In this document: positions 9,401 through 24,605 of the stretch, piece by piece
Layout: every line of letters begins with the position of its first letter
How positions within the stretch are numbered: position 1 is the stretch's first letter
From: a virus
Virus record (IMG/VR): IMGVR_UViG_3300037189_003636
Coordinates: 1 to 26,960 of that record
Reading direction: 5' to 3' (one strand)
Length of the DNA stretch: 26,960 nt
Notes under the pieces: generated by a model
What the model was told of the DNA's origin: nothing
What the model saw: only the letters and a program-made list of their open reading frames with translations
Databases searched by the model: none
Made by a program: the position numbers and the translations under genes

Positions 9401-9952
9401 ATGGCAGTTGTAAATGATTTTCACTGTGCAAAACACGGATACTTTGAATCACGGGAGGCTAAATGCCCCATGAAAGGATGTCATGAAGAAGTTATGGTCG
9501 TATTTTTGCAAGCTCCTAACCTTATCAGCAACAAAACAAGGTTCACAGACAAATCAACCAAGCAACTTGCAATCGAGTTTGATATGTCAGACATTAAAAC
9601 AACCCGTGAAGGCGAAAACCAAGCAGGTTACCTTACCCGCAAAAACAAGTTCAAAGAAAAAGATTACGCAGAAGCAGAAAAGTACGCAACCCGTAAAAGA
9701 GGCAACAAAGACAAAATCAAACCCGTTCCCACTCAAGAAGCGCCAAAAGAAAGTCGCCCAGGCGATGCAGCGATCTGGGGTGGCGGACAAAACGGCATGA
9801 ATATGCAATCTATTCTTGCTGGTCAATTTGCTAAACCTGTAAGAGATGAGCAAGTAGGCTTGACACCAAATCAAGCAGGGATTATAAAAGGACCTACAAC
9901 CCTTGCTGGCGGTACAATGAGAGATCCAGACAACTTAAAAATTAAAAAATGA
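9401..9952 (+). CDS. 183-residue protein with an N-terminal zinc-ribbon-like motif
   Basis: The start reads VNDFHCAKHGYFESREAKCP, then MKGCHEEV, so C9, H12, C22 and C27 could bind zinc. The remainder is lysine-rich and probably disordered, with an IWGGGQNGMNMQSILAGQFAKP segment near residue 125. GGGGAGATAACA precedes the ATG. It lies between the terminase and portal genes, where such zinc-ribbon proteins occur in related podoviruses. The function is unknown; a packaging accessory or head protein is plausible. Confidence 0.75.
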   Translation: MAVVNDFHCAKHGYFESREAKCPMKGCHEEVMVVFLQAPNLISNKTRFTDKSTKQLAIEFDMSDIKTTREGENQAGYLTRKNKFKEKDYAEAEKYATRKRGNKDKIKPVPTQEAPKESRPGDAAIWGGGQNGMNMQSILAGQFAKPVRDEQVGLTPNQAGIIKGPTTLAGGTMRDPDNLKIKK

Positions 9953-11574
9953 AAATTCCGTCATCCCCTGAAGCTAGAGAAGATTTTTATTTGGACATCA
10001 TTAACAAGTGTATGGTGTCAAAAGAAAGCAGACGGGGTGACTACACAACACTAAGAGCTTATTATTTATTTGGCGCTGGACCAGAACAACCACCAGCGTA
10101 CTTCAATAAAATCCATCCGCATTTAGATCAGTTAACTTCATTTTTATATTCAGCAGAAACAACACGATTTTCAATTGGTTTAGGAGCGTCAGTACATTCT
10201 GCTGAACACCACAAAGCACCAGTCTTAACTCAAGCCCTTAATGATGAGTGGCTAAACTCTAATGCAGACCAAGTATTTTCAACTGCGTTGACATGGGCGC
10301 TTGTGTACAACACCACATTTATTAAGTTGGTGTACAACAAAGGTATTCATCCTTACATGATTGAGCCGTCATCTATTGGCGTATTGCGTGAGGACACCCC
10401 TTATACAGACAGGCAAGAAGCCATTACACAAACTTATTACATTACTAAGTCGGAGCTATATGCCCGTCTGTATTCCCATCCAAAGCGTGAATCCATAGTA
10501 AATCGTATTACTACAGGTACAAAAGTATCTGATTCGGAAATTCCTGATGCGGTAAATCGTATTGTAATGAGTCAAACCAATCCTACAATTTACGGTAACG
10601 TAAATCTTGATCTGTACGGCATCAATCGCTATAAAGCTCAAGTGGCTGAAGATACAGTTGAGATGACAGAGTTGTGGGTATGGAATGATGACACCGAAGA
10701 TTATCAAGTAGTCACAATGGCTGCGCCTGACATTATTATTTATGACAGACAAGGGGCATCATTATTTTTAAAAGGCGAATGTCCTTTTGTACAGATTGCT
10801 CCTAATCCATTACCAGATTATTATTGGGGTGCTTCTGAAGCACAGCAATTGATTTTGTTACAAGAGTTGCGTAACACACGCATGACGGAGATTTTGGACT
10901 TGTTATCTAAACAAGTTGCTCCACCAACAGCATTTAGTGGATTTAGCGGTATTACTGATGAGAAATACTTTGCTATGCAACGTGCTGGTTCATTGATTGC
11001 GTCTGATATGCCTGGCGGTAAAGTAGATCGTTTATCTCCTGAGATGCCACCTGATTTATTTGAGGTGTTGCATGAGATTGACCAAATGTTTGCTGAAGTA
11101 TCAGGTATTAGCAATGTATTAAGCGGTAAAGGTGAATCAGGTGTTCGTTCACAAGGTCATGCAAGTCAATTGGCACGTCTTGGTAGCTCAAGAGCAAAAA
11201 AACGGGCTTTGATTGTTGAAGATAGTCTTGAGAAAGTAGCAACCCTATATCTTAAACTCTTGCAAGCCTATGATGACACTCATTTCAAAGATGAAGATGG
11301 AAAAGCGTTTATTGCTGAACAATTTACTAAAGATTATGTGGTGAAAGTAGATGCTCACTCTAACAGCCCAATCTTTACAGAAGATTTGAAGCAATTAGCG
11401 TTTAATTTGTTTAAAGCCAAAGCAATTGATGCTGAATCATTACTTGACTTAACAGAACCACCAATGAAACAATTACTTAAAGATAAATTAAAACGCAGAG
11501 AGAAGTTGGAAGCCTCACAGCCTAAACAACAAGCTCCTGCTCCCAAAGGCAAAAAAGAACCAGAGGTAGGATAA
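9949..11574 (+). CDS. Portal protein
   Basis: The 541-residue protein sits between terminase and scaffold/capsid genes and has podovirus-portal features. These are an N-terminal helical wing (YTTLRAYYLFGAGPEQPPAYFNKIHPHLDQL), a long central beta part, and the C-terminal stem-like segment LQELRNTRMTEILDLLSKQVAPP. GVRSQGHASQLARLGSSRAKKR follows near residues 398-420. The last 25 residues are Pro/Lys-rich. It forms the dodecameric ring through which DNA enters and leaves the head. The ATG overlaps the upstream stop as ATGA without a clear ribosome-binding site, so translation is probably coupled. Confidence 0.88.
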   Translation: MKIPSSPEAREDFYLDIINKCMVSKESRRGDYTTLRAYYLFGAGPEQPPAYFNKIHPHLDQLTSFLYSAETTRFSIGLGASVHSAEHHKAPVLTQALNDEWLNSNADQVFSTALTWALVYNTTFIKLVYNKGIHPYMIEPSSIGVLREDTPYTDRQEAITQTYYITKSELYARLYSHPKRESIVNRITTGTKVSDSEIPDAVNRIVMSQTNPTIYGNVNLDLYGINRYKAQVAEDTVEMTELWVWNDDTEDYQVVTMAAPDIIIYDRQGASLFLKGECPFVQIAPNPLPDYYWGASEAQQLILLQELRNTRMTEILDLLSKQVAPPTAFSGFSGITDEKYFAMQRAGSLIASDMPGGKVDRLSPEMPPDLFEVLHEIDQMFAEVSGISNVLSGKGESGVRSQGHASQLARLGSSRAKKRALIVEDSLEKVATLYLKLLQAYDDTHFKDEDGKAFIAEQFTKDYVVKVDAHSNSPIFTEDLKQLAFNLFKAKAIDAESLLDLTEPPMKQLLKDKLKRREKLEASQPKQQAPAPKGKKEPEVG

Positions 11575-11738
11575 TGGCAAGAGGAAACGTAGCACCTAAA
11601 GCAGATCAACCAAGGGTAACTACTGAATCTCTAAAAAGAGATGCACAGCCAACAAATTTGCAGTATCGTGTACAAGGCGTTAAAAGTTTTGATAGATCTT
11701 CTAAAACAAGAGATCTAGGTCGTTCAGTTAGGGGATAG
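11574..11738 (+). CDS. 54-residue basic protein after the portal gene
   Basis: The frame begins MARGNVAPKADQPRVTTESL and ends KTRDLGRSVRG. It overlaps the portal stop as TAATG, the junction style used throughout this operon. The product is basic and likely unstructured. It may be a minor head protein; no family is recognised. Confidence 0.65.
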   Translation: MARGNVAPKADQPRVTTESLKRDAQPTNLQYRVQGVKSFDRSSKTRDLGRSVRG

Positions 11739-11756
11739 CTTAATTGGAGATTTCAA

Positions 11757-11798
11757 ATGCGTAAAAGTCATAAAAAATCACGTAAATCACGTAGATAA
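11757..11798 (+). CDS. 13-residue Arg/Lys peptide 1
   Basis: The frame encodes MRKSHKKSRKSRR, with nine of 13 residues Arg or Lys. A strong ribosome-binding site, TTGGAG, lies 7 nt before the ATG. The leader is duplicated almost exactly before the second peptide about 120 bp downstream, and both are followed by non-coding DNA. The repeated leader plus a repeated composition argues against chance. By analogy to the small basic DNA-packaging proteins of microviruses it could neutralise packaged DNA, but no homology can be claimed at this length. Confidence 0.55.
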   Translation: MRKSHKKSRKSRR

Positions 11799-11878
11799 TA
11801 GTTTCCTTCACGGGAGAAAAAGGGTGTGGCTGCCTTCCCTAGGAAATAGGTGGTCCTATGCTAATTAGGAGATTCCAA

Positions 11879-11920
11879 ATGGCACGTAAAGGACGCAAAG
11901 GTCGTAAAGGTCGCAAGTAA
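11879..11920 (+). CDS. 13-residue Arg/Lys peptide 2
   Basis: The frame encodes MARKGRKGRKGRK, a tandem R-K-G repeat built from 9-bp units. AGGAG lies 7 nt before the ATG. The leader TAATTAGGAGATTCCAAATG differs from that of peptide 1 by one insertion and one substitution. An in-frame ATG at 11858 would give a 20-residue version starting MLIRRFQ, with a weaker ribosome-binding site. It lies between the portal and scaffold-type genes, and three hairpins follow it directly. Confidence 0.55.
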   Translation: MARKGRKGRKGRK

Positions 11921-11968
11921 TCCGAAAGGATACTAGCGATTGACCGCTAAACCTCCCTTGGGGGGAGG
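11920..11968 (+). other. Three successive hairpins after peptide 2
   Basis: ATCC-GAAA-GGAT (11920-11931, a GNRA tetraloop), TAGCG-ATTGAC-CGCTA (11934-11949) and CCTCCC-loop-GGGAGG (11952-11968). No U-run follows the last, so this looks like mRNA 3'-end protection or processing rather than a standard intrinsic terminator. Confidence 0.45.
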
Positions 11969-11991
11969 GAATCAAAAATAATACCCCCCAC

Positions 11992-12019
11992 TTGACAATT
12001 GTTATATTAAGATTACGAT
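11992..12019 (+). promoter_or_regulatory. Promoter of the scaffold-capsid genes
   Basis: A perfect TTGACA (11992-11997), a 16-bp spacer and TACGAT (12014-12019) lie 25 bp before the ATG at 12045, in the 124-bp gap after the hairpins. It would give extra transcription of the capsid genes independent of the start at 5850. Confidence 0.55.
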
Positions 12020-12044: not shown

Positions 12045-12581
12045 ATGGGCGTACCGTCAGACAAGTTAATGGAAATGATTAAATCCCAAAAGGATGGTGC
12101 AACTCCTGGTGGGCTTCCACAAGCGCCAGAAGGACCTGGCAATATTTCTGACAATTCTGCCCCTCCAATGGGATCACCTATGTCAACCCCAGAACCCAAG
12201 ATGGGTAATCGGGAAGCCTCAATGATTAACATTTCGATGGCTATGGATTTACTAGAACAAGCATTACCTGCGTTAGGAAGCGAATCAGGTGAAGGTCAAA
12301 AACTCCTTTCCGCTATTCGAACCATGACAGGCATCATTGGTCCTAAGAAGTCTAAAGTAAATGAACTTCAACCAACCGAAATTATGCAAATGCTTCAAAC
12401 ATTACCTCAAGCTGGTGGCGCAACTGCTGAAGGTAAAGCAATGCAACAAGCGCCACAAATCCCAGGTATGTCACCTGGCGGTGGTATGCCTCCTCCTACA
12501 CCTCCTGGTGCTGGCGCTGGTATGCCTCCTCCTTCTGGCGGTTTGCCAGGTGGTATGCCTTCCGCAACTCCAAAAATGTAA
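12045..12581 (+). CDS. Pro/Gly/Met-rich protein of the head module
   Basis: The 178-residue product has a disordered N-terminus and one ordered helical block (about 61-117, MINISMAMDLLEQALPALG to MQMLQTLPQ). Its C-terminus is made of G-G-M-P-P-P-x-P repeats. AGGAAAATAT precedes the ATG. Proteins with a helical core and Pro/Gly-rich tails are common between portal and scaffold in podoviruses, but no function is assigned. It may help prohead assembly. Confidence 0.7.
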   Translation: MGVPSDKLMEMIKSQKDGATPGGLPQAPEGPGNISDNSAPPMGSPMSTPEPKMGNREASMINISMAMDLLEQALPALGSESGEGQKLLSAIRTMTGIIGPKKSKVNELQPTEIMQMLQTLPQAGGATAEGKAMQQAPQIPGMSPGGGMPPPTPPGAGAGMPPPSGGLPGGMPSATPKM

Positions 12582-16434: not shown

Positions 16435-18429
16435 ATGGCTGCTGCTGAACAGAAAAAATCGTATCAGGTCGTTAAGGAATTTAAAGGACTTAACACCAAG
16501 GCTAACCGAACTGCCATTGAAGAAACTGAATTTTCATGGATTGAAAACGCTCAACCAGTTGGTTATGCCAACATCAAAATTGTTCCAACTTATAACCAAG
16601 TAAGCAATGTTTCTAACGTAGCTGTTACTTGGTCAAATACAGTAAGTCAATTGGCTTCTGTAAACATTGGTTTGTATGATTATATTGTTGCTTTTTTAAC
16701 AGACGGTTCTGCTCAATATTTCAACATTCAAACTGCTAATACAGGAAACGTAGCCGTTGCAGGTACATTTTCTAATTCTGGAATAAGTTACTCTCAATAC
16801 TATAACGACAGAATGTTGATTTTAGATCCTTCCAAAGGGTTATCTTCTTGGGATGGTAACAACGTGGTTTTCATTGGATCAGTAGGTGTAGTAGCTGTTA
16901 CCAACAAAGGATCTGGTTACACAACAGCTCCCACAGTTACTATTTCAGCACCTAATCAAACTGGTGGGGTACAAGCTAACGCTACATCATCTTTAACTAG
17001 CGGTGCAAACACTGTTGGTTTTGTCAGTTTGTCTAATGCGGGTTCAGGATATAACGCTGCTCCAACCGTTACTTTTACAGGAGGTGGTGGATCTGGCGCA
17101 ACAGCAATTGCTGCTTACACTACGTTTGCTACTGGTACGGTCACCATTAACGTCATTTCTGGAGGCGCTGGATATACTAATTCTTCTAACACTACTGTAA
17201 CTATCACGGGTGGTGGTGGATCTGGCGCAGTTGGTAATGCCGTTATTAGCGGTAACGTAGTAACTCAAGTGGTCATGGCTAACCCAGGATCAGGATATAC
17301 CAACAGCGCCAACATCGTAGTAACCATTTCAGGCGGTGGAGCGACTAATAATGCCATATTGCAAGGCATAGTTAACACCACGCAAAACGTGTCTGTAGCA
17401 ACTTTTTCAGGTCGAACATGGGTGGCAGCAGGGAGAACCATTTATTACAGCGCTGCGGGGTCTTATAGCGATTTTACAAGCGTATCAGCAGGATCAATAA
17501 CCCTTACGGATTCAACCCTTCATGGAAACATTCAGCAACTTCTTTCTGCTAATAACTTTTTGTATATTTTTGGCGATGATTCGATCAACGTATTTTCGGA
17601 TGTTAGGGTTACTACTAGTGGCACTACTATTTTTACTAACACAAACGTAAGTGCATCTGTAGGATCAAAACGCCCTAACGCTATATTTCCGTATTTTCGT
17701 TCTGTGCTGTTTATGAACGATTATGGGATGTACGCCCTTGTAGGATCTACTACTTCTAAGCTCTCAGATAGCTTAGATGGTATGTTTCCTAATATTGATT
17801 TTGCTAGTCCTATTTACGCTGGTCAGGTGTTAATTAACAACATCCTGTGTGCTGCCTTTAATTTCCGTTATTACGATGCCGTATTTACCCAAAGCTATCG
17901 TTACATTCAAGCGGTGTTTTTTGAAAAAAAATGGTTTTTAACTAGCCAAAATGACAGTCTTGCTTACATTACTTCTGTACCCGTTGGCGGTAAAGTAACC
18001 TTATATGGAACGTCTGGTCAAAACTTGTACCAGTTGTACTCTAATGCTACCGCTACTATTACTAGCCGTATCCAAACCGCATTGATGCCAATGGGTGACC
18101 CCATTAGGACTAAACAAGCGTTAAAATTTGCTATTGAAGCTACTAACAGTAATGTGGTCGCATTATCCGCTACTGTTGACAGTGAAATTGGTTCTAGCCC
18201 TGTATATTCTTTGTCTAGCGCAATTATTTGGCAAAATAATTCGTTTGTCACAATTCCTTGGACAAATAATGCTGGCGCAACGATTAGTTGGGATTCTGTA
18301 GGCTATGAATTGTATAAATCTGATGCTTCTCAGTATGGAAAATACTTAGGGTTAACAGTAACATCTAATAGTGCGGGATTTGTCTATAACGGTTTTGAAT
18401 TTGAACATGAACTGAGAGTGAGATTCTAA
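16435..18429 (+). CDS. Nozzle-like tail protein with four GSGYT repeats
   Basis: The 664-residue protein follows the adaptor gene by 2 bp, the place of the tail nozzle or stabilisation protein (P22 gp10-like). Its ends carry beta-propeller-like segments such as YNDRMLILDPSKGLSSWDG, GRTWVAAGRTIYYSAAG and NNFLYIFGDDSINVFSD. Between about residues 150 and 310 there are four repeats of about 40 residues: KGSGYTTAPTVTI, AGSGYNAAPTVTFTGGGG, GGAGYTNSSNTTVTITGGGG and PGSGYTNSANIVVTISGGG. They look like an inserted glycine-rich beta domain. The C-terminus ends FEFEHELRVRF, typical of this protein type. Confidence 0.7.
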   Translation: MAAAEQKKSYQVVKEFKGLNTKANRTAIEETEFSWIENAQPVGYANIKIVPTYNQVSNVSNVAVTWSNTVSQLASVNIGLYDYIVAFLTDGSAQYFNIQTANTGNVAVAGTFSNSGISYSQYYNDRMLILDPSKGLSSWDGNNVVFIGSVGVVAVTNKGSGYTTAPTVTISAPNQTGGVQANATSSLTSGANTVGFVSLSNAGSGYNAAPTVTFTGGGGSGATAIAAYTTFATGTVTINVISGGAGYTNSSNTTVTITGGGGSGAVGNAVISGNVVTQVVMANPGSGYTNSANIVVTISGGGATNNAILQGIVNTTQNVSVATFSGRTWVAAGRTIYYSAAGSYSDFTSVSAGSITLTDSTLHGNIQQLLSANNFLYIFGDDSINVFSDVRVTTSGTTIFTNTNVSASVGSKRPNAIFPYFRSVLFMNDYGMYALVGSTTSKLSDSLDGMFPNIDFASPIYAGQVLINNILCAAFNFRYYDAVFTQSYRYIQAVFFEKKWFLTSQNDSLAYITSVPVGGKVTLYGTSGQNLYQLYSNATATITSRIQTALMPMGDPIRTKQALKFAIEATNSNVVALSATVDSEIGSSPVYSLSSAIIWQNNSFVTIPWTNNAGATISWDSVGYELYKSDASQYGKYLGLTVTSNSAGFVYNGFEFEHELRVRF

Positions 18430-20624
18430 TGTCAGTACCCTATACCTTTGCTACGGCTACTACAGCCCTACCCCTATCCCAACTAGATTCTAACTTCGCT
18501 ACGCCCATTACTTTGGGCAATACTGCTGTTTATTTAGGCAATACTACCAGCACTATTTACAATTTAGCCCTTGGAAACGTATCTATTCTTAGCGGATCGG
18601 TTACTTTAACTAACGTAAGCACTACTAATGCTACCGTAACTAATCTTGTAAGCTCAAATGTATCCATTACTGGCGGATCAATTAGCAACGTATCTTTAAG
18701 TTTTGATGCTATTAACAATACCCCAATTGGTAATGTTACACCAAGCACTGCTGTATTTACTACTTTAACAGCTACTAGCTCTAATGTAGGAACGGTTACT
18801 GCAGGTGTTTGGAATGGCACAGCCATTGATAATGCTTATTTAGCAAACAGTTCCATCACTATTGGCGGTACAAGCATTGCATTAGGTGCATCTACCTCAA
18901 CAATAGCCAATGATTTATCTATATCAGGTCTTACTGTTGGTAAGGGTGGTGGTGCTATTGCTGGTAATACGGCTTTAGGCTCAAATGCTCTTACTGGTGC
19001 AAATACTGGAACTGGTTACAACACAGCTATTGGTGCAAATTCTTTACTAAACAATACATCTGGAGCGCAAAATTCAGCAGTTGGGTTAAATACGCTTAAC
19101 GCCAATACTACTGGTAATTTCAATTCTGCTTTAGGAACATTTTCATTAGCTGCAAATACTACTGGTTCTAACAATGTGGCTGTGGGCTATACGGCTTTAA
19201 ATGCTAACACCACAGCATCTAACAACACCGCAGTAGGCTATCAAGCTGGATATAGTAATACTACTGGTGCATCTTTAGTTGCGATTGGTTGGAGTGCATT
19301 AAGAGCAAATACTACTGGAACACAAAATACTGCCGTTGGATATTCAGCACTTATATCAAACACAACTGGAAGCTATAGTACAGCCGTTGGATACCAAGCT
19401 GGTAACGCAAACACTACTGGTGATATTGCCGCATTTGGGCAAGCTGTTTTATCTGGAAATACTACTGGCATAGCCAATGCTGGTTTTGGTGGTTATGGTG
19501 GTAGCACACAAACCCTTTCAACAAACACAACAGGTTCTTACAATTCTGCATTTGGTTATGGCGCTTTAGCAAATAACACCACCGCATCTAATAACACCGC
19601 AGTCGGTTATCAAGCTGGGTATAGTAATACAACTGGGCAATATAATGTAATATTGGGTTCTCAAGCGCTATACACTAATTCAACAGGTTCTTATAATGTT
19701 GCTATTGGTTTAAATACTTTACGATATAACACTGTTGATGGAAATACTGGAATTGGAAATCAAGCTCTACAAAATAACTCTACTGGTGCTTCTAATGCTG
19801 GATTTGGAAATTCAGCTTTAATAACCAATACAACAGGTTCTTATAATACGGGTCTTGGAACTTTAGCTCTTTTTTCAAACACCACCGCATCTAACAACAC
19901 CGCAGTAGGTTATCAGGCTGGTTACAGTAATACTACGGGGCAGTACATTACCGCAGTTGGTACTGGTGCTGGATATTACGGAGTAAACAATTCAAATAAT
20001 ACTTGGATGGGCTATCAAGCTGGTTACGTTGTTTCTGTTGGTGCATCTAACGTTGGAATTGGTTATCAAGCTAATTATGCCTCTGGTGGAACTGGCGGTT
20101 CTAATAACGTTTCTGTTGGATACCAAGCGCAATACTCTCAACTAAATGGTGCAAACAACACCGCAGTAGGTTACCAAGCTGGGTATAGTAATACTACTGG
20201 AGCTCAAATTACTGCGTTTGGATATAAAGCTGGTTATACAGCAACAGGAGATTGGAGCACTTATATTGGAGCACAATCTGGTCAAAATGTTACATCAGGT
20301 GCATTTAATACATTTATTGGTTTAAATTCAGGGCAAAATGTAACAACAGGTTCTAAAAATTCTATTCTTGGTGCTTACAACGGCAATCAAGGCGGTCTAG
20401 ACATCCGTACAGCAAGTAACTACATTGTGTTATCTGATGGTGATGGTAATCCTAGGCAGTATTTCAATGGTTCTATTGCTATCTTTAATGGCACTATTTC
20501 CCCTGTTCAAGCAGCTACCGCTTCTGCTCCAGCGTATGTCAAAGGCGCAATTTACTTTGACACTACTTTAAATAAACTTCGTGTTGGTGGTGCTACAGCA
20601 TGGGAAACAATTACTTCTGTCTAA
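18429..20624 (+). CDS. Tail fibre with YadA-like repeats
   Basis: The 731-residue protein has a beta-rich N-terminus for virion attachment (about 1-170). It continues with some 450 residues of short repeats of the type NTTGSNNTAVGYQAL/AG. These resemble the coiled beta-roll head of trimeric adhesins, in which each 14-16-residue unit makes one turn. The end contains NGNQGGLDIRTASNYIVLSDGDG and a terminal KGAIYFDTTLNKLRVGGA, both frequent in phage fibres. It probably binds the host surface. Four near-identical 47-53-bp DNA repeats inside the gene are listed separately. The start overlaps the previous stop as TAATG. Confidence 0.75.
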   Translation: MSVPYTFATATTALPLSQLDSNFATPITLGNTAVYLGNTTSTIYNLALGNVSILSGSVTLTNVSTTNATVTNLVSSNVSITGGSISNVSLSFDAINNTPIGNVTPSTAVFTTLTATSSNVGTVTAGVWNGTAIDNAYLANSSITIGGTSIALGASTSTIANDLSISGLTVGKGGGAIAGNTALGSNALTGANTGTGYNTAIGANSLLNNTSGAQNSAVGLNTLNANTTGNFNSALGTFSLAANTTGSNNVAVGYTALNANTTASNNTAVGYQAGYSNTTGASLVAIGWSALRANTTGTQNTAVGYSALISNTTGSYSTAVGYQAGNANTTGDIAAFGQAVLSGNTTGIANAGFGGYGGSTQTLSTNTTGSYNSAFGYGALANNTTASNNTAVGYQAGYSNTTGQYNVILGSQALYTNSTGSYNVAIGLNTLRYNTVDGNTGIGNQALQNNSTGASNAGFGNSALITNTTGSYNTGLGTLALFSNTTASNNTAVGYQAGYSNTTGQYITAVGTGAGYYGVNNSNNTWMGYQAGYVVSVGASNVGIGYQANYASGGTGGSNNVSVGYQAQYSQLNGANNTAVGYQAGYSNTTGAQITAFGYKAGYTATGDWSTYIGAQSGQNVTSGAFNTFIGLNSGQNVTTGSKNSILGAYNGNQGGLDIRTASNYIVLSDGDGNPRQYFNGSIAIFNGTISPVQAATASAPAYVKGAIYFDTTLNKLRVGGATAWETITSV
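19215..20200 (+). repeat. Four near-identical 47-53-bp repeats in the fibre gene
   Basis: Copies at 19215-19267, 19584-19636, 19888-19940 and a shorter one at 20154-20200 all encode NNTAVGYQAGYSNTTG. They differ at only a few, mostly silent, positions. Spacing is 369, 304 and 266 bp, all but the first not simple copies of one unit. Confidence 0.75.
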
Positions 20625-21695: not shown

Positions 21696-22054
21696 TGCTC
21701 CCCACCGCCAAAAAAAATCAGGTTTTTGAAGAACAACAAGAATTGCAAATTAAACACTACTTTAGTGGTGGAACTTATGCTAAACGCATGATTTTAAAAT
21801 CTGGAGCAAGCATTAGCACTCATAAACATAACTTTAACCACATGAGTATTTTGGCTCAAGGAACAGCTAAAGTTACGATAGATGAAGCATCACAATTGTA
21901 TTTTGCACCCTCAGTTATTGAGATAAAAGCAGGTAAAGCACACAAAATTGAGGCAGTTATTGAATGTCATTGGTATTGCATCCATGCAACCAACATTACT
22001 GACCCCGATTTGATTGATGAAACGCTAGTAGTGGAGGAAGAAAATGCCATTTGA
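21695..22054 (+). CDS. Cupin-domain protein
   Basis: The 119-residue product has the cupin motif HKHNFNHMSILAQGTAKV with H43, H45 and H49, then a second motif around IEIKAGKAHKIEAV with H83. Together they give a four-His metal site instead of the usual two His, Glu, His. The fold is a small beta-barrel that can bind metal and a small carboxylic acid or sugar, or be structural. It overlaps the next gene by 11 bp. The role in the phage is unknown; a metabolic enzyme and a virion barrel are both possible. Confidence 0.75.
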   Translation: MLPTAKKNQVFEEQQELQIKHYFSGGTYAKRMILKSGASISTHKHNFNHMSILAQGTAKVTIDEASQLYFAPSVIEIKAGKAHKIEAVIECHWYCIHATNITDPDLIDETLVVEEENAI

Positions 22055-23615
22055 TTTTGGTACGTATGATTCTGGCGGAGATAGCGGAGGTTTTCCTACT
22101 GGTAGCGTACAAGTTATTGGATTACCTGCTGATTGGACACCATCTACTGGATCTGTTGACTTAGCAGCTACTGTAGAACAACCACTTGTTCAAGAATTTG
22201 CTACTCAAACACCTGCAATTCAAGCAGTTCAAGCACAACTTCCTAATTTTCAAGACATATTGCCACAGGATTTGTCAACTCAGATTCAAACAATGTCTAA
22301 CACATTGTTAACTCAACAATCACAAATACAAGCTCAAGCAAAAACAATTATTACAGATCAATCAAGTGTTAATAATGCGTATTCATCATATACGGCAGCC
22401 GTAAATAATTACAACGCTCATTACAATCAATATATGCAAGATGCAACCTTGCTTTTAAGAAGCGGTTTAGGTCAGGCTTCTGCAAATAGAAGGGCATTAG
22501 CAAACGGTCTTTTAAACGATGTTAATAGCACCAAAGCAAATTACACCACTCAAGTAGCCAAATACAAAGCTGATACAGCATCATTGCAATCTAATATTAG
22601 CAATTACAACGCTACTTACACCAATTACACAGGCGCTGTAGCGATTGCTCAAGGTGACATTAAAGCTGCTCAAGATGCAGCAGCAGCCAAAGCAAAAGCC
22701 GATGCTCAAGCAACAGCAGACAAGATTGCAGCCGATAAAGCTAAGGCTGAGGCTGATGCAGCAGCTAAAGCTAAGGCGGATGCGGACGCTCAAGCAGCAG
22801 CCGATGCCAAAGCTAAGGCGGATGCGGATGCAGCAGCAGCAGAAAAGGCTAGAGCAGAAGCACAAGCAACAGCCGATGCAAAAGCCAAAGCCGATGCCGA
22901 TGCAGCAGCTCAATTAGCAGCGGAAGCTAAAGCTAAAGCGGATGCCGATGCAAAGGCAGCAGCGGAAGCAAAATCAATTGCTGATGCAAAATTAAAAGCG
23001 GATGCCGATGCAGAGGCAGCAACAAAAGCTCAAGCTGATGCTCAAGCAGCAAATGATGCTGAAGCAAAAAGGGTGGCTGATGAAGCAGCAGCCAAAGCAG
23101 AACAAGATAGGCTGGTGGCAGAGCAATTAGCAAAAGAAGCTGCTGACAAAGCTGCACAAACACAAACTGGCGGAACAGATGCGGTTACGGTTAACCCACC
23201 AACAACAACTCCTGAGCCAACACCTGAGCCAACACCTGAGCCAACACCTACCCCAACACCAGTTCCAGAACCTACTCCGACACCAATTCCTGCTCCTGAG
23301 CCAACACCTGAGCCAACACCCGAACCGACTCCTGAACCTACGCCAGAACCTACCCCGACACCACCTCCTGACCAAACGCAAACAGGCACAACCACTTTGC
23401 CTGATTTGTTAGTGCCTTATGGACAAAAAACAAAAGCATCTCCTTTAACTAGCACTTTTGCTTCTTCAGATGCTTTATCTAGCGCTTTATTGGGAAGTGG
23501 TTTAAGCTCAAGACCTGACGTTTCAACCACGTCAGAACCGTATTTGTTGGGTACAGATGAAGCTAAAAAGAATGTTTGGAACACTGAATCACTTAAAAAT
23601 GCGTTAGGACTATAA
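22044..23615 (+). CDS. Long low-complexity virion protein: coiled coil plus PEPTP
   Basis: The 523-residue protein has a mixed N-terminus (1-85) and a helical part. About 165 residues of Ala/Lys/Asp repeats follow (about 206-372, e.g. AAAKAKADAQATADKIAADK), then PEPTP repeats (about 385-446) and a short C-terminal region. The Ala/Lys/Asp rod resembles domain II of TolA in composition and the proline stretch resembles TonB, but low complexity means this proves nothing. GGAGGAAGAAA precedes the ATG. It lies at the head of the probable internal-virion genes and may span the envelope or act as a rod in the particle. Confidence 0.6.
   Translation: MPFDFGTYDSGGDSGGFPTGSVQVIGLPADWTPSTGSVDLAATVEQPLVQEFATQTPAIQAVQAQLPNFQDILPQDLSTQIQTMSNTLLTQQSQIQAQAKTIITDQSSVNNAYSSYTAAVNNYNAHYNQYMQDATLLLRSGLGQASANRRALANGLLNDVNSTKANYTTQVAKYKADTASLQSNISNYNATYTNYTGAVAIAQGDIKAAQDAAAAKAKADAQATADKIAADKAKAEADAAAKAKADADAQAAADAKAKADADAAAAEKARAEAQATADAKAKADADAAAQLAAEAKAKADADAKAAAEAKSIADAKLKADADAEAATKAQADAQAANDAEAKRVADEAAAKAEQDRLVAEQLAKEAADKAAQTQTGGTDAVTVNPPTTTPEPTPEPTPEPTPTPTPVPEPTPTPIPAPEPTPEPTPEPTPEPTPEPTPTPPPDQTQTGTTTLPDLLVPYGQKTKASPLTSTFASSDALSSALLGSGLSSRPDVSTTSEPYLLGTDEAKKNVWNTESLKNALGL
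23211..23368 (+). repeat. 12-bp tandem repeats encoding PEPT
   Basis: CCTGAGCCAACA and near copies are repeated about a dozen times, some diverged. Such tracts expand and contract by slippage. Confidence 0.6.
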
Positions 23616-24605
23616 ATGGCAAAACTTGAACAAACACTAGGCACAGATTTAGCATCTATTGCTCAATTATTACGTTCAAAAGGACGGGGTAAAGACAGCG
23701 TTCTTGCTCATATTACCCCCAAAGAAGCTGCGCTTTTAAAGCGTAGAGGTGGTAGAGGTAGTGTTAACCCTGATACTGGATTGCCAGAATATGAAGATAC
23801 GGTTGATGCTCCAATAGATCAAGCACCTGTGGACCAAGCGCCTGTAGATCAAGCGCCAGTAGATCAAGCGCCAGTAGATCAAGCGCCAGTAAATGTGTTT
23901 GATAATTCTCAACCAGCACCTACATACGCTTTTACTCCATCAGAAGCAATATCTGGCAGTCAACGTGATATGTCAACTCCATTTCAGAATTTTAATCCAG
24001 CAGATAATGCTGCTGCTAGATCAATTTTGGGTATGGGAAATGTAGAGCCAGGAGCAGCGCCAACAGTAGATACTGGAGATAAAACACCTGTTAAACCAGA
24101 ACAAGGAGGAAAAGACCCGTTCAAAATGCCTAGCCTTGGGCAACTTGGCACATTAGGTCTTGCTGGCGCTTTAGGTGCTTATGGCGCTTCTCAAGCTCGT
24201 AGAGGAGCTGCTCAAACTCAAGCTGGCACTGCTGAACAAAAAGCTATTGCTGCCCCTTACCAACAACAAGGTCAGCAATTGATTTCTCAAGCTCAAGCAG
24301 GTCAATTGACCCCTACAAGCCAACAAGCTCTTGAAGCTGCAAAAGCTCAATTAGCTCAATCTCAATCTAATAGAGGTGGCGTAGGAGCGCAACAATCAGC
24401 TAATCAAATAGCCAATATTTATCAAACTTTGTTAGATAATCAATATAAATACGGCTTGCAAGTCATGCAAATTGGTGACAACATTAGTTTGGGCGCTATT
24501 AAATCAGGCTTGCAACTGGATCAACAGTTACAAACATCTACCAATAACTTCTACAGTCAATTGGCAAGCATTGTTGGTGGTCAACCGATAAGGGTAGGAT
24601 TCTAA
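23616..24605 (+). CDS. 329-residue internal-virion-type protein
   Basis: The N-terminus includes a helix (SIAQLLRSKGRGKDS) and a run of VDQAP units (about 67-91). After residue 165 comes a glycine-rich small hydrophobic stretch, LGQLGTLGLAGALGAYGASQ. Then follows a long Gln/Ala-rich helical region ending QTSTNNFYSQLASIVGGQ. Such an Ala/Gln-rich helical protein with a glycine zipper just before larger helical proteins fits podovirus ejection or internal core proteins. That is inferred. The start abuts the previous stop. Confidence 0.55.
   Translation: MAKLEQTLGTDLASIAQLLRSKGRGKDSVLAHITPKEAALLKRRGGRGSVNPDTGLPEYEDTVDAPIDQAPVDQAPVDQAPVDQAPVDQAPVNVFDNSQPAPTYAFTPSEAISGSQRDMSTPFQNFNPADNAAARSILGMGNVEPGAAPTVDTGDKTPVKPEQGGKDPFKMPSLGQLGTLGLAGALGAYGASQARRGAAQTQAGTAEQKAIAAPYQQQGQQLISQAQAGQLTPTSQQALEAAKAQLAQSQSNRGGVGAQQSANQIANIYQTLLDNQYKYGLQVMQIGDNISLGAIKSGLQLDQQLQTSTNNFYSQLASIVGGQPIRVGF
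23814..23888 (+). repeat. Five 15-bp units encoding (I/V)DQAP
   Basis: The last three units, GTAGATCAAGCGCCA, are identical and two others differ slightly. Confidence 0.7.

Follow-up and report, generated by a model that had tools for sequence, protein, structure and literature searches.

The microvirus peptides J (phiX174) and VP8 (gokushoviruses) are 25–40 amino acids (aa) long and belong to single-stranded DNA (ssDNA) viruses, and adenovirus Mu and VII are made as precursors that are cut by a viral protease. J coats the replicative-form (RF) DNA of phiX174 and is packaged (PMC13386984), and adenovirus DNA is bound by the basic proteins VII, V and Mu (PMC4189039). In T4, the operator of gene 32 contains a pseudoknot upstream of the ribosome-binding site (RBS) and is the site of autogenous repression by gp32 (PMC535899). 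Here we set beside these systems a pair of very short, very basic genes found in the window, that is, the whole 26,960-base virus record analyzed (IMGVR_UViG_3300037189_003636, positions 1 to 26,960), which comes from an uncultured freshwater tailed phage. By comparative sequence analysis, the sole approach taken, the cassette is a set of one to three paralogous microprotein genes under amino-acid-level selection in the head-assembly region, and both open reading frames (ORFs) of the window are very probably expressed microproteins, as conservation among relatives, the ratio of replacement to synonymous variation (pN/pS 0.25–0.29) and a private transcription unit in a sister subclade all argue. 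The two genes and their leaders are as follows.

11740..11756, + strand: leader of gene 1, with a Shine-Dalgarno (SD) core GGAG 7–8 nt before the start.
11757..11798, + strand: microprotein gene 1, class B, MRKSHKKSRKSRR, 13 aa, from ATG 11757 to TAA 11798; family consensus end [GS]RK[ST]RR.
11859..11878, + strand: leader of gene 2, with SD AGGAG, again 7–8 nt before the start; it resembles leader 1 unusually closely in the window phage.
11879..11920, + strand: microprotein gene 2, class C, MARKGRKGRKGRK, 13 aa, from ATG 11879 to TAA 11920; family consensus end GRKxRK.

An initial annotation had drawn attention to two 13-residue Arg/Lys ORFs with RBSs, and these are indeed present: MRKSHKKSRKSRR and MARKGRKGRKGRK are the sole ORFs of 9–22 codons with at least 45% K+R on either strand of the window, where a dinucleotide Markov control gives a chance expectation of 0.05 per window (0.000 at ≥60% K+R). 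Both are basic to the last residue and have no hydrophobic tail. Alternative starts farther upstream, such as ATG 11858 (MLIRRFQMARK...), were rejected, the upstream open length varying from 13 to 60 aa across loci; stop-codon read-through or fusion of peptides 1 and 2 was likewise ruled out, as spacer lengths vary without maintenance of frame.

Relatives were drawn from IMG/VR by their portal genes and read downstream from the portal stop. Among the matches listed, all 70 of the 70 portal-anchored loci with enough sequence hold one to three basic micro-ORFs in the same slot, and 61 of the 70 hold two or three. Start, stop, charge, reading frame and RBS are kept across portal identities from 100% to ~50%, and a GGAG/AGGA SD core lies upstream of every micro-ORF examined (134/134). 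The pattern that the initial annotation had named as speaking against translation, frameshifts or stop codons in frames whose leaders are kept, was sought in these relatives and not seen; it is the frames that are kept and the leaders that vary. The peptides adjoin the portal even at loci of the sister subclade (L201-type), where other genes intervene before the scaffold genes. A context-blind scan with the back-translated pattern RKGRKxRK-stop, which like all our collection scans yields a lower bound, matched at least 117 contigs, 116 of them in the clade with the same neighbors; the one remaining contig lacks such an ORF and matched by chance. Remote relatives, reached via the portal of locus L195, carry the diverged pairs MRKAKRHSRKSKR + MARRKGRKGRK, MYKSVKRGRRKGCR + MRRKGRKARR and MMYNKMKRNRRPRR + MAKRRGRKGGK. 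When whole records were searched with the loose pattern R-K-x-R-x-stop, matches were found in 11 of 11 records, and their positions put nearly all of them at or near the cassette; record G007 has a single clear additional match. The peptide genes are also found on three GTDB metagenome-assembled genome contigs; the bins of these boreal-lake contigs (L240-L242), two betaproteobacterial and one Legionella, hint weakly at the host. An isolate of the clade was sought and none was found. In the public relatives MW202753 and MW202825 (L082:4740-5038; L083:7779-8039), the peptide slot carries no annotation on its own strand and is spanned instead by hypothetical genes called on the other strand, which are probably annotation artefacts.

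Selection on these genes operates at the level of the amino acid. Synonymous changes exceed replacement changes about 4-fold, with pN/pS of 0.25 for class B and 0.26–0.29 for class C, third codon positions hold 55–62% of the differences in both classes, and the constraint extends to non-basic positions. Among distinct class B ORFs, R at −1, K at −4 and R at −5 are invariant (84/84). The favored arginine codons CGT and CGC together account for 76% of the class B total and, for portal-anchored class C, 96%; this codon choice is close to that of the gene of the major capsid (head) protein (MCP), at 75%, and unlike that of portal (57%) or terL (50%). The portal-anchored class C value is unbiased, whereas class C values from pattern-selected loci are biased. 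The peptides run to 10–15 codons, occasionally ~24, about half to two thirds of them Lys or Arg, and fall into three classes, A (..SCK/R), B (..RK[ST]RR) and C (..GRKxRK), with a common C-terminal signature [GS]-R-K-x-[RC]-[RK]. Because of this shared signature, and because leader plus ORF occur as a tandem copy at L010 and L038, the classes look like paralogues, and the convergent composition proposed in the initial annotation is probably wrong. At five loci (L255, L265, L266, L308 and L329) the class C peptide is longer, ~24 aa (MMYGKAKMAPKMARMGRKARKGRK), and still basic; no solved structure and no Pfam match was found for this variant.

The earlier argument for translation from a duplicated leader fares less well. 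The two leaders of the window are similar, with an alignment score of 15/20 that exceeds every sampled cross-locus pair, but the resemblance is not conserved: over 88 distinct leader pairs in relatives, similarity is barely higher within a locus than across loci (9.28 vs 8.85). Peculiar to the window phage, the duplication is weak evidence of translation, a conclusion that is strongly supported on the other grounds given here.

One of these grounds, beside conservation and pN/pS, is the organization of the L201-type subclade. In 12 of 12 such loci a promoter of the TTGACA-N16-TATATT/AATAAT type starts at the portal stop (the spacer is 17–18 in two of the 12), and in all 12 a hairpin plus T-run, an intrinsic terminator, lies 25–43 nt past the last peptide. 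Apart from a conserved 5' leader, the unit so delimited encodes the peptides alone, two or three in number. These promoter and terminator calls are pattern matches, convincing through their recurrence at the same place in 12 loci. The conserved 5' leader itself (GGTGAAACG.GACAGCC...ATGGACAAGGA.AACCTGCC; L201:5630-5760 and equivalents) may hold further RNA structure.

Structured RNA, which went unmentioned in the initial annotation, surrounds gene 2 of the window, with one pseudoknot (PK1) upstream of the gene and a second (PK2) before the scaffold/capsid promoter.

11802..11817, + strand: hairpin P0, directly after the gene 1 stop, called from its fold; GNRA-like or UUCACG loop in relatives (118 distinct spacers listed).
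11821..11855, + strand: PK1, an H-type pseudoknot upstream of gene 2; stem 1 11821-11824/11837-11840, stem 2 11828-11835/11848-11855.
11918..11932, + strand: hairpin H1, overlapping the gene 2 stop, UAAUCC-GAAA-GGAU; conserved with a GNRA loop, with variants UUC..GAA.
11934..11949, + strand: hairpin H2 (TAGCG..CGCTA), called from sequence; it varies among relatives.
11954..11990, + strand: PK2, a second H-type pseudoknot; stem 1 11954-11958/11966-11970, stem 2 11959-11965/11984-11990, with an A-rich loop 3.
11992..12019, + strand: putative sigma-70-type promoter TTGACA-16-TACGAT for the scaffold/capsid genes, called from sequence and from its position relative to PK2 in relatives.

PK1 and PK2 look like new RNA motifs; compared with Rfam, neither finds a match in the window, where the hits are sub-threshold only (E 1.3 and 4.1). 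Across 83 distinct PK1 sequences 92.3% of cells are paired, and 84 cells are altered on both sides of a pair, versus 16.8 ± 3.2 in shuffled alignments (0/500) and far lower values in slid controls. This alignment leaves out two of the 85 distinct cores, L010 and L057, in which the anchor is ambiguous; by eye they have a 7-bp stem 2 variant. The element ends upstream of the gene 2 SD, ~12 nt from it in the window, and a scan with PK1 only recovered at least 87 new loci, of which all 87 listed lie in the clade with a basic micro-ORF no more than 60 nt downstream. Folded with nested pairs alone, the 85-nt spacer does not stand out (z −0.19), as is to be expected if the true fold is a pseudoknot. 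PK2 was scored at 121 loci, and in 84% of them it beat the 95th percentile of shuffles; its stems occur in 51 distinct combinations, strands taken from different loci pair at 64%/69%, and loop 3 is 63% A. The stems were fitted per sequence, which gives 100% own-strand pairing by construction, so that the shuffle and cross-locus figures are the informative ones. Minimum free energies just past the stops are −4.0 for gene 1 (shuffled −2.2) and −3.7 for gene 2 (shuffled −1.3). In most relatives PK2 ends 1–4 nt before the −35 box, and the pseudoknot has no U-run; in the L201-type subclade the corresponding end of the cassette has an intrinsic terminator of the usual kind. Two familiar settings for pseudoknots were considered: a transfer-messenger RNA (tmRNA), a short ORF among pseudoknots, was rejected, since ARAGORN finds no tRNA or tmRNA in the window, and for a type III toxin-antitoxin system no adjacent toxin-like gene was seen, no further test having been made.

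These RNA elements come and go. The L201-type loci have neither pseudoknot and keep the peptides; L213-type loci have no PK1, retain a PK2-like fold (read by eye) and keep the peptides; in L073-type loci (L073, L077 and L079) PK1 and class C are lost together and class B is kept. Because the peptides persist where the pseudoknots are absent, constancy lies with the peptides and not with the RNA; most simply, then, the peptides are the product, with the RNAs serving as lineage-specific control.

What such a product might do can be addressed with less assurance. The reading that we tentatively prefer, while granting it somewhat less than an even chance, is that the genes yield plentiful microproteins, produced alongside the head proteins, that bind nucleic acid and perhaps act on packaged DNA, with the pseudoknots tuning expression. 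Nucleic-acid binding is the simplest proposal for peptides that are small, basic, probably abundant and made with head proteins, and the phage genome being packaged would be the nearest candidate target. Large amounts of the peptides would be produced while heads assemble, and the conserved [GS]RKx[RC][RK] tails would bind nucleic acid, with phage DNA, as it is packaged or afterwards, the most likely partner; that the peptides are incorporated in the virion is a guess. PK1 and PK2 would then be expression-control elements. With its pseudoknot upstream of the RBS, as in the T4 gp32 arrangement, PK1 could sense excess peptide, and such a structured site would suit autogenous repression by the surplus. 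A DNA-neutralizing role like that of J/VP8 is our leading guess and is compatible with the data. The boldest form of the idea, that the clade packages protamine-like 13-mers with its genome in an amount set by a dose-sensing pseudoknot on their own message, we consider rather unlikely.

Several observations weigh against the nucleic-acid-binding reading. Although synonymous sites are near saturation, the C-terminal motif keeps its R and K residues exactly, more than a role of charge alone would demand; this suggests more specific contacts and leaves room for an RNA-binding alternative. We know of no need for packaged basic peptides in tailed double-stranded DNA (dsDNA) phages, and a literature search for basic packaged peptides in tailed phages found no papers. 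Six distant head- or terminase-relatives have no such ORFs, nor, judged by gene spacing, does SU10; the distant MCP relatives without them include Mx8, BUCT555, a Bradyrhizobium phage, MW202803 and MW202566, so that absence outside the clade is a statement about a handful of distant relatives and pattern scans. PK1 stem 2 has mismatching variants at pairs 3-5. The class C statistics rest partly on loci selected by the class C pattern itself, and the IMG/VR contigs are redundant lake samples, though the tests took distinct sequences.

Of the alternatives, the one that survives best is that the peptides and RNAs form regulatory pairs, in which free-standing arginine-rich motifs (ARMs; cf. lambda N and the Tat ARM) have as their main target the cis RNA, be it PK1, PK2 or the hairpins, and so control read-through, translation or stability of the portal-to-capsid messages. 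The covarying pseudoknots beside the ORFs, the unfailing presence of a basic micro-ORF in the 87 loci listed from the PK1-only scan, the joint loss of PK1 and class C, and the conserved Arg/Lys identity of the motif are all in its favor. Yet two subclades keep the peptides without PK1, the L201-type without PK2 as well, and the L073-type loci retain class B without PK1, and we regard this explanation as doubtful. It is unlikely that the peptides are instead host-directed effectors, abundant basic molecules that bind host ribosomes, RNA polymerase or nucleoid and so redirect the host. Small phage proteins do frequently target the host (PMC11323111), and the strong private host-type promoter of one subclade would fit, but the location in the head cluster, always beside the portal in the loci seen, would not. 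Quite improbable, too, is a role as scaffold or portal assembly cofactors, with the peptides bridging acidic head proteins rather than binding nucleic acid: the portal is the constant neighbor, and the head proteins are acidic (net charge −14 for portal and −6 for MCP), but acidity is usual for head proteins and nothing specific indicates these as partners.

Polybasic stretches can slow ribosomes, and short ORFs near structured RNA might act as leader peptides, whose translation itself opens or stalls RNA structures controlling the scaffold/capsid genes. We hold this to be very improbable. Selection at the amino-acid level includes the non-basic positions, the length and sequence of the spacer vary, and the private L201-type unit, with its own terminator, splits the peptides from what follows, where moreover the gene differs; peptides transcribed alone in this way argue against a leader-peptide role. 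That the ORFs arose by chance, or are purely non-coding RNA taken for genes, is extremely improbable: ORFs so short are normally unreliable and the interval does hold structured RNA, but 0.05 were expected, the ORFs are conserved in hundreds of loci, pN/pS is ~0.25, and one subclade gives the genes a transcription unit of their own.

The setting of the cassette is that of a tailed phage, with terminase (PF17289), portal (PF23899) and major head protein (PHROG 9953) genes in the corresponding order. Both peptide ORFs lie between the portal gene and a 54-aa ORF on one side and a 178-aa ORF on the other.

9949..11574, + strand: portal protein gene, SU10_portal family (Pfam PF23899, 40.2 bits, cut-off 30; PHROG 1216), the upstream neighbor.
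11574..11738, + strand: basic 54-aa ORF, net +7, function unassigned; no counterpart in the L201-type sister subclade.
12045..12581, + strand: 178-aa Pro/Gly/Met-rich head-cluster gene, the downstream neighbor of the peptide cassette; its protein has no match in Pfam or PHROG.

Farther along the window, 18429-20624 encodes a probable fiber protein of 731 aa in which NTAVGYQAGYSNTTG-like repeats are numerous, 22044-23615 a protein with Ala/Lys-rich and PTPEPTPEP repeats, and 23616-24605, the next, a protein with VDQAP tandem repeats.

Genes of 10–15 codons fall under the floor of gene finders, and this family, given its comparative support, offers a rare test case for the minimum size of a real phage gene. 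Small phage genes have reportedly been predicted by Fremin, Bhatt and Kyrpides (2022), as a general class of tiny conserved genes reached via comparative genomics. Binding of packaged DNA by the peptides, if it occurs, would alter the idea that small cations by themselves suffice for tailed phages, and packaged 13-mers with a dose-sensing pseudoknot would be a compact equivalent, in phages, of viral core peptides, under RNA control of their own.

How closely, then, do the described systems correspond? Like J and VP8, the peptides are very short, very basic and encoded with head genes. Membership in that family, to which the initial annotation had likened them, does not hold up: the virus has terminase, portal and major head protein genes and is not an ssDNA microvirus, the peptides are a third to half as long (13 aa, the longest variants ~24 aa and still basic, against 25–40 aa), they have no coat-binding C-terminal part, and no homology is detectable. 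They are, rather, 10–15-mers of a tailed dsDNA phage, usually present as two paralogues and flanked by pseudoknots. With adenovirus Mu and the protamine-like VII they share the character of short basic peptides that, in those cases, bind packaged dsDNA; release from a precursor of the Mu type was rejected, each locus examined having its own ATG, SD and stop, so that the peptide is the whole ORF. Lambda N and Tat likewise present a short Arg/Lys motif with RNA structures nearby, but the peptides here are free-standing 10–15-mers in a head-gene cluster, the RNA is a pseudoknot and not boxB or TAR, and the peptides persist without pseudoknots. As for T4 gene 32, PK1 too lies upstream of the SD and covaries strongly, and the gene regulated there encodes a nucleic-acid-binding protein, as the peptides would be on the preferred reading, although gp32 is a large, unrelated ssDNA-binding protein and the present locus has a second pseudoknot downstream.
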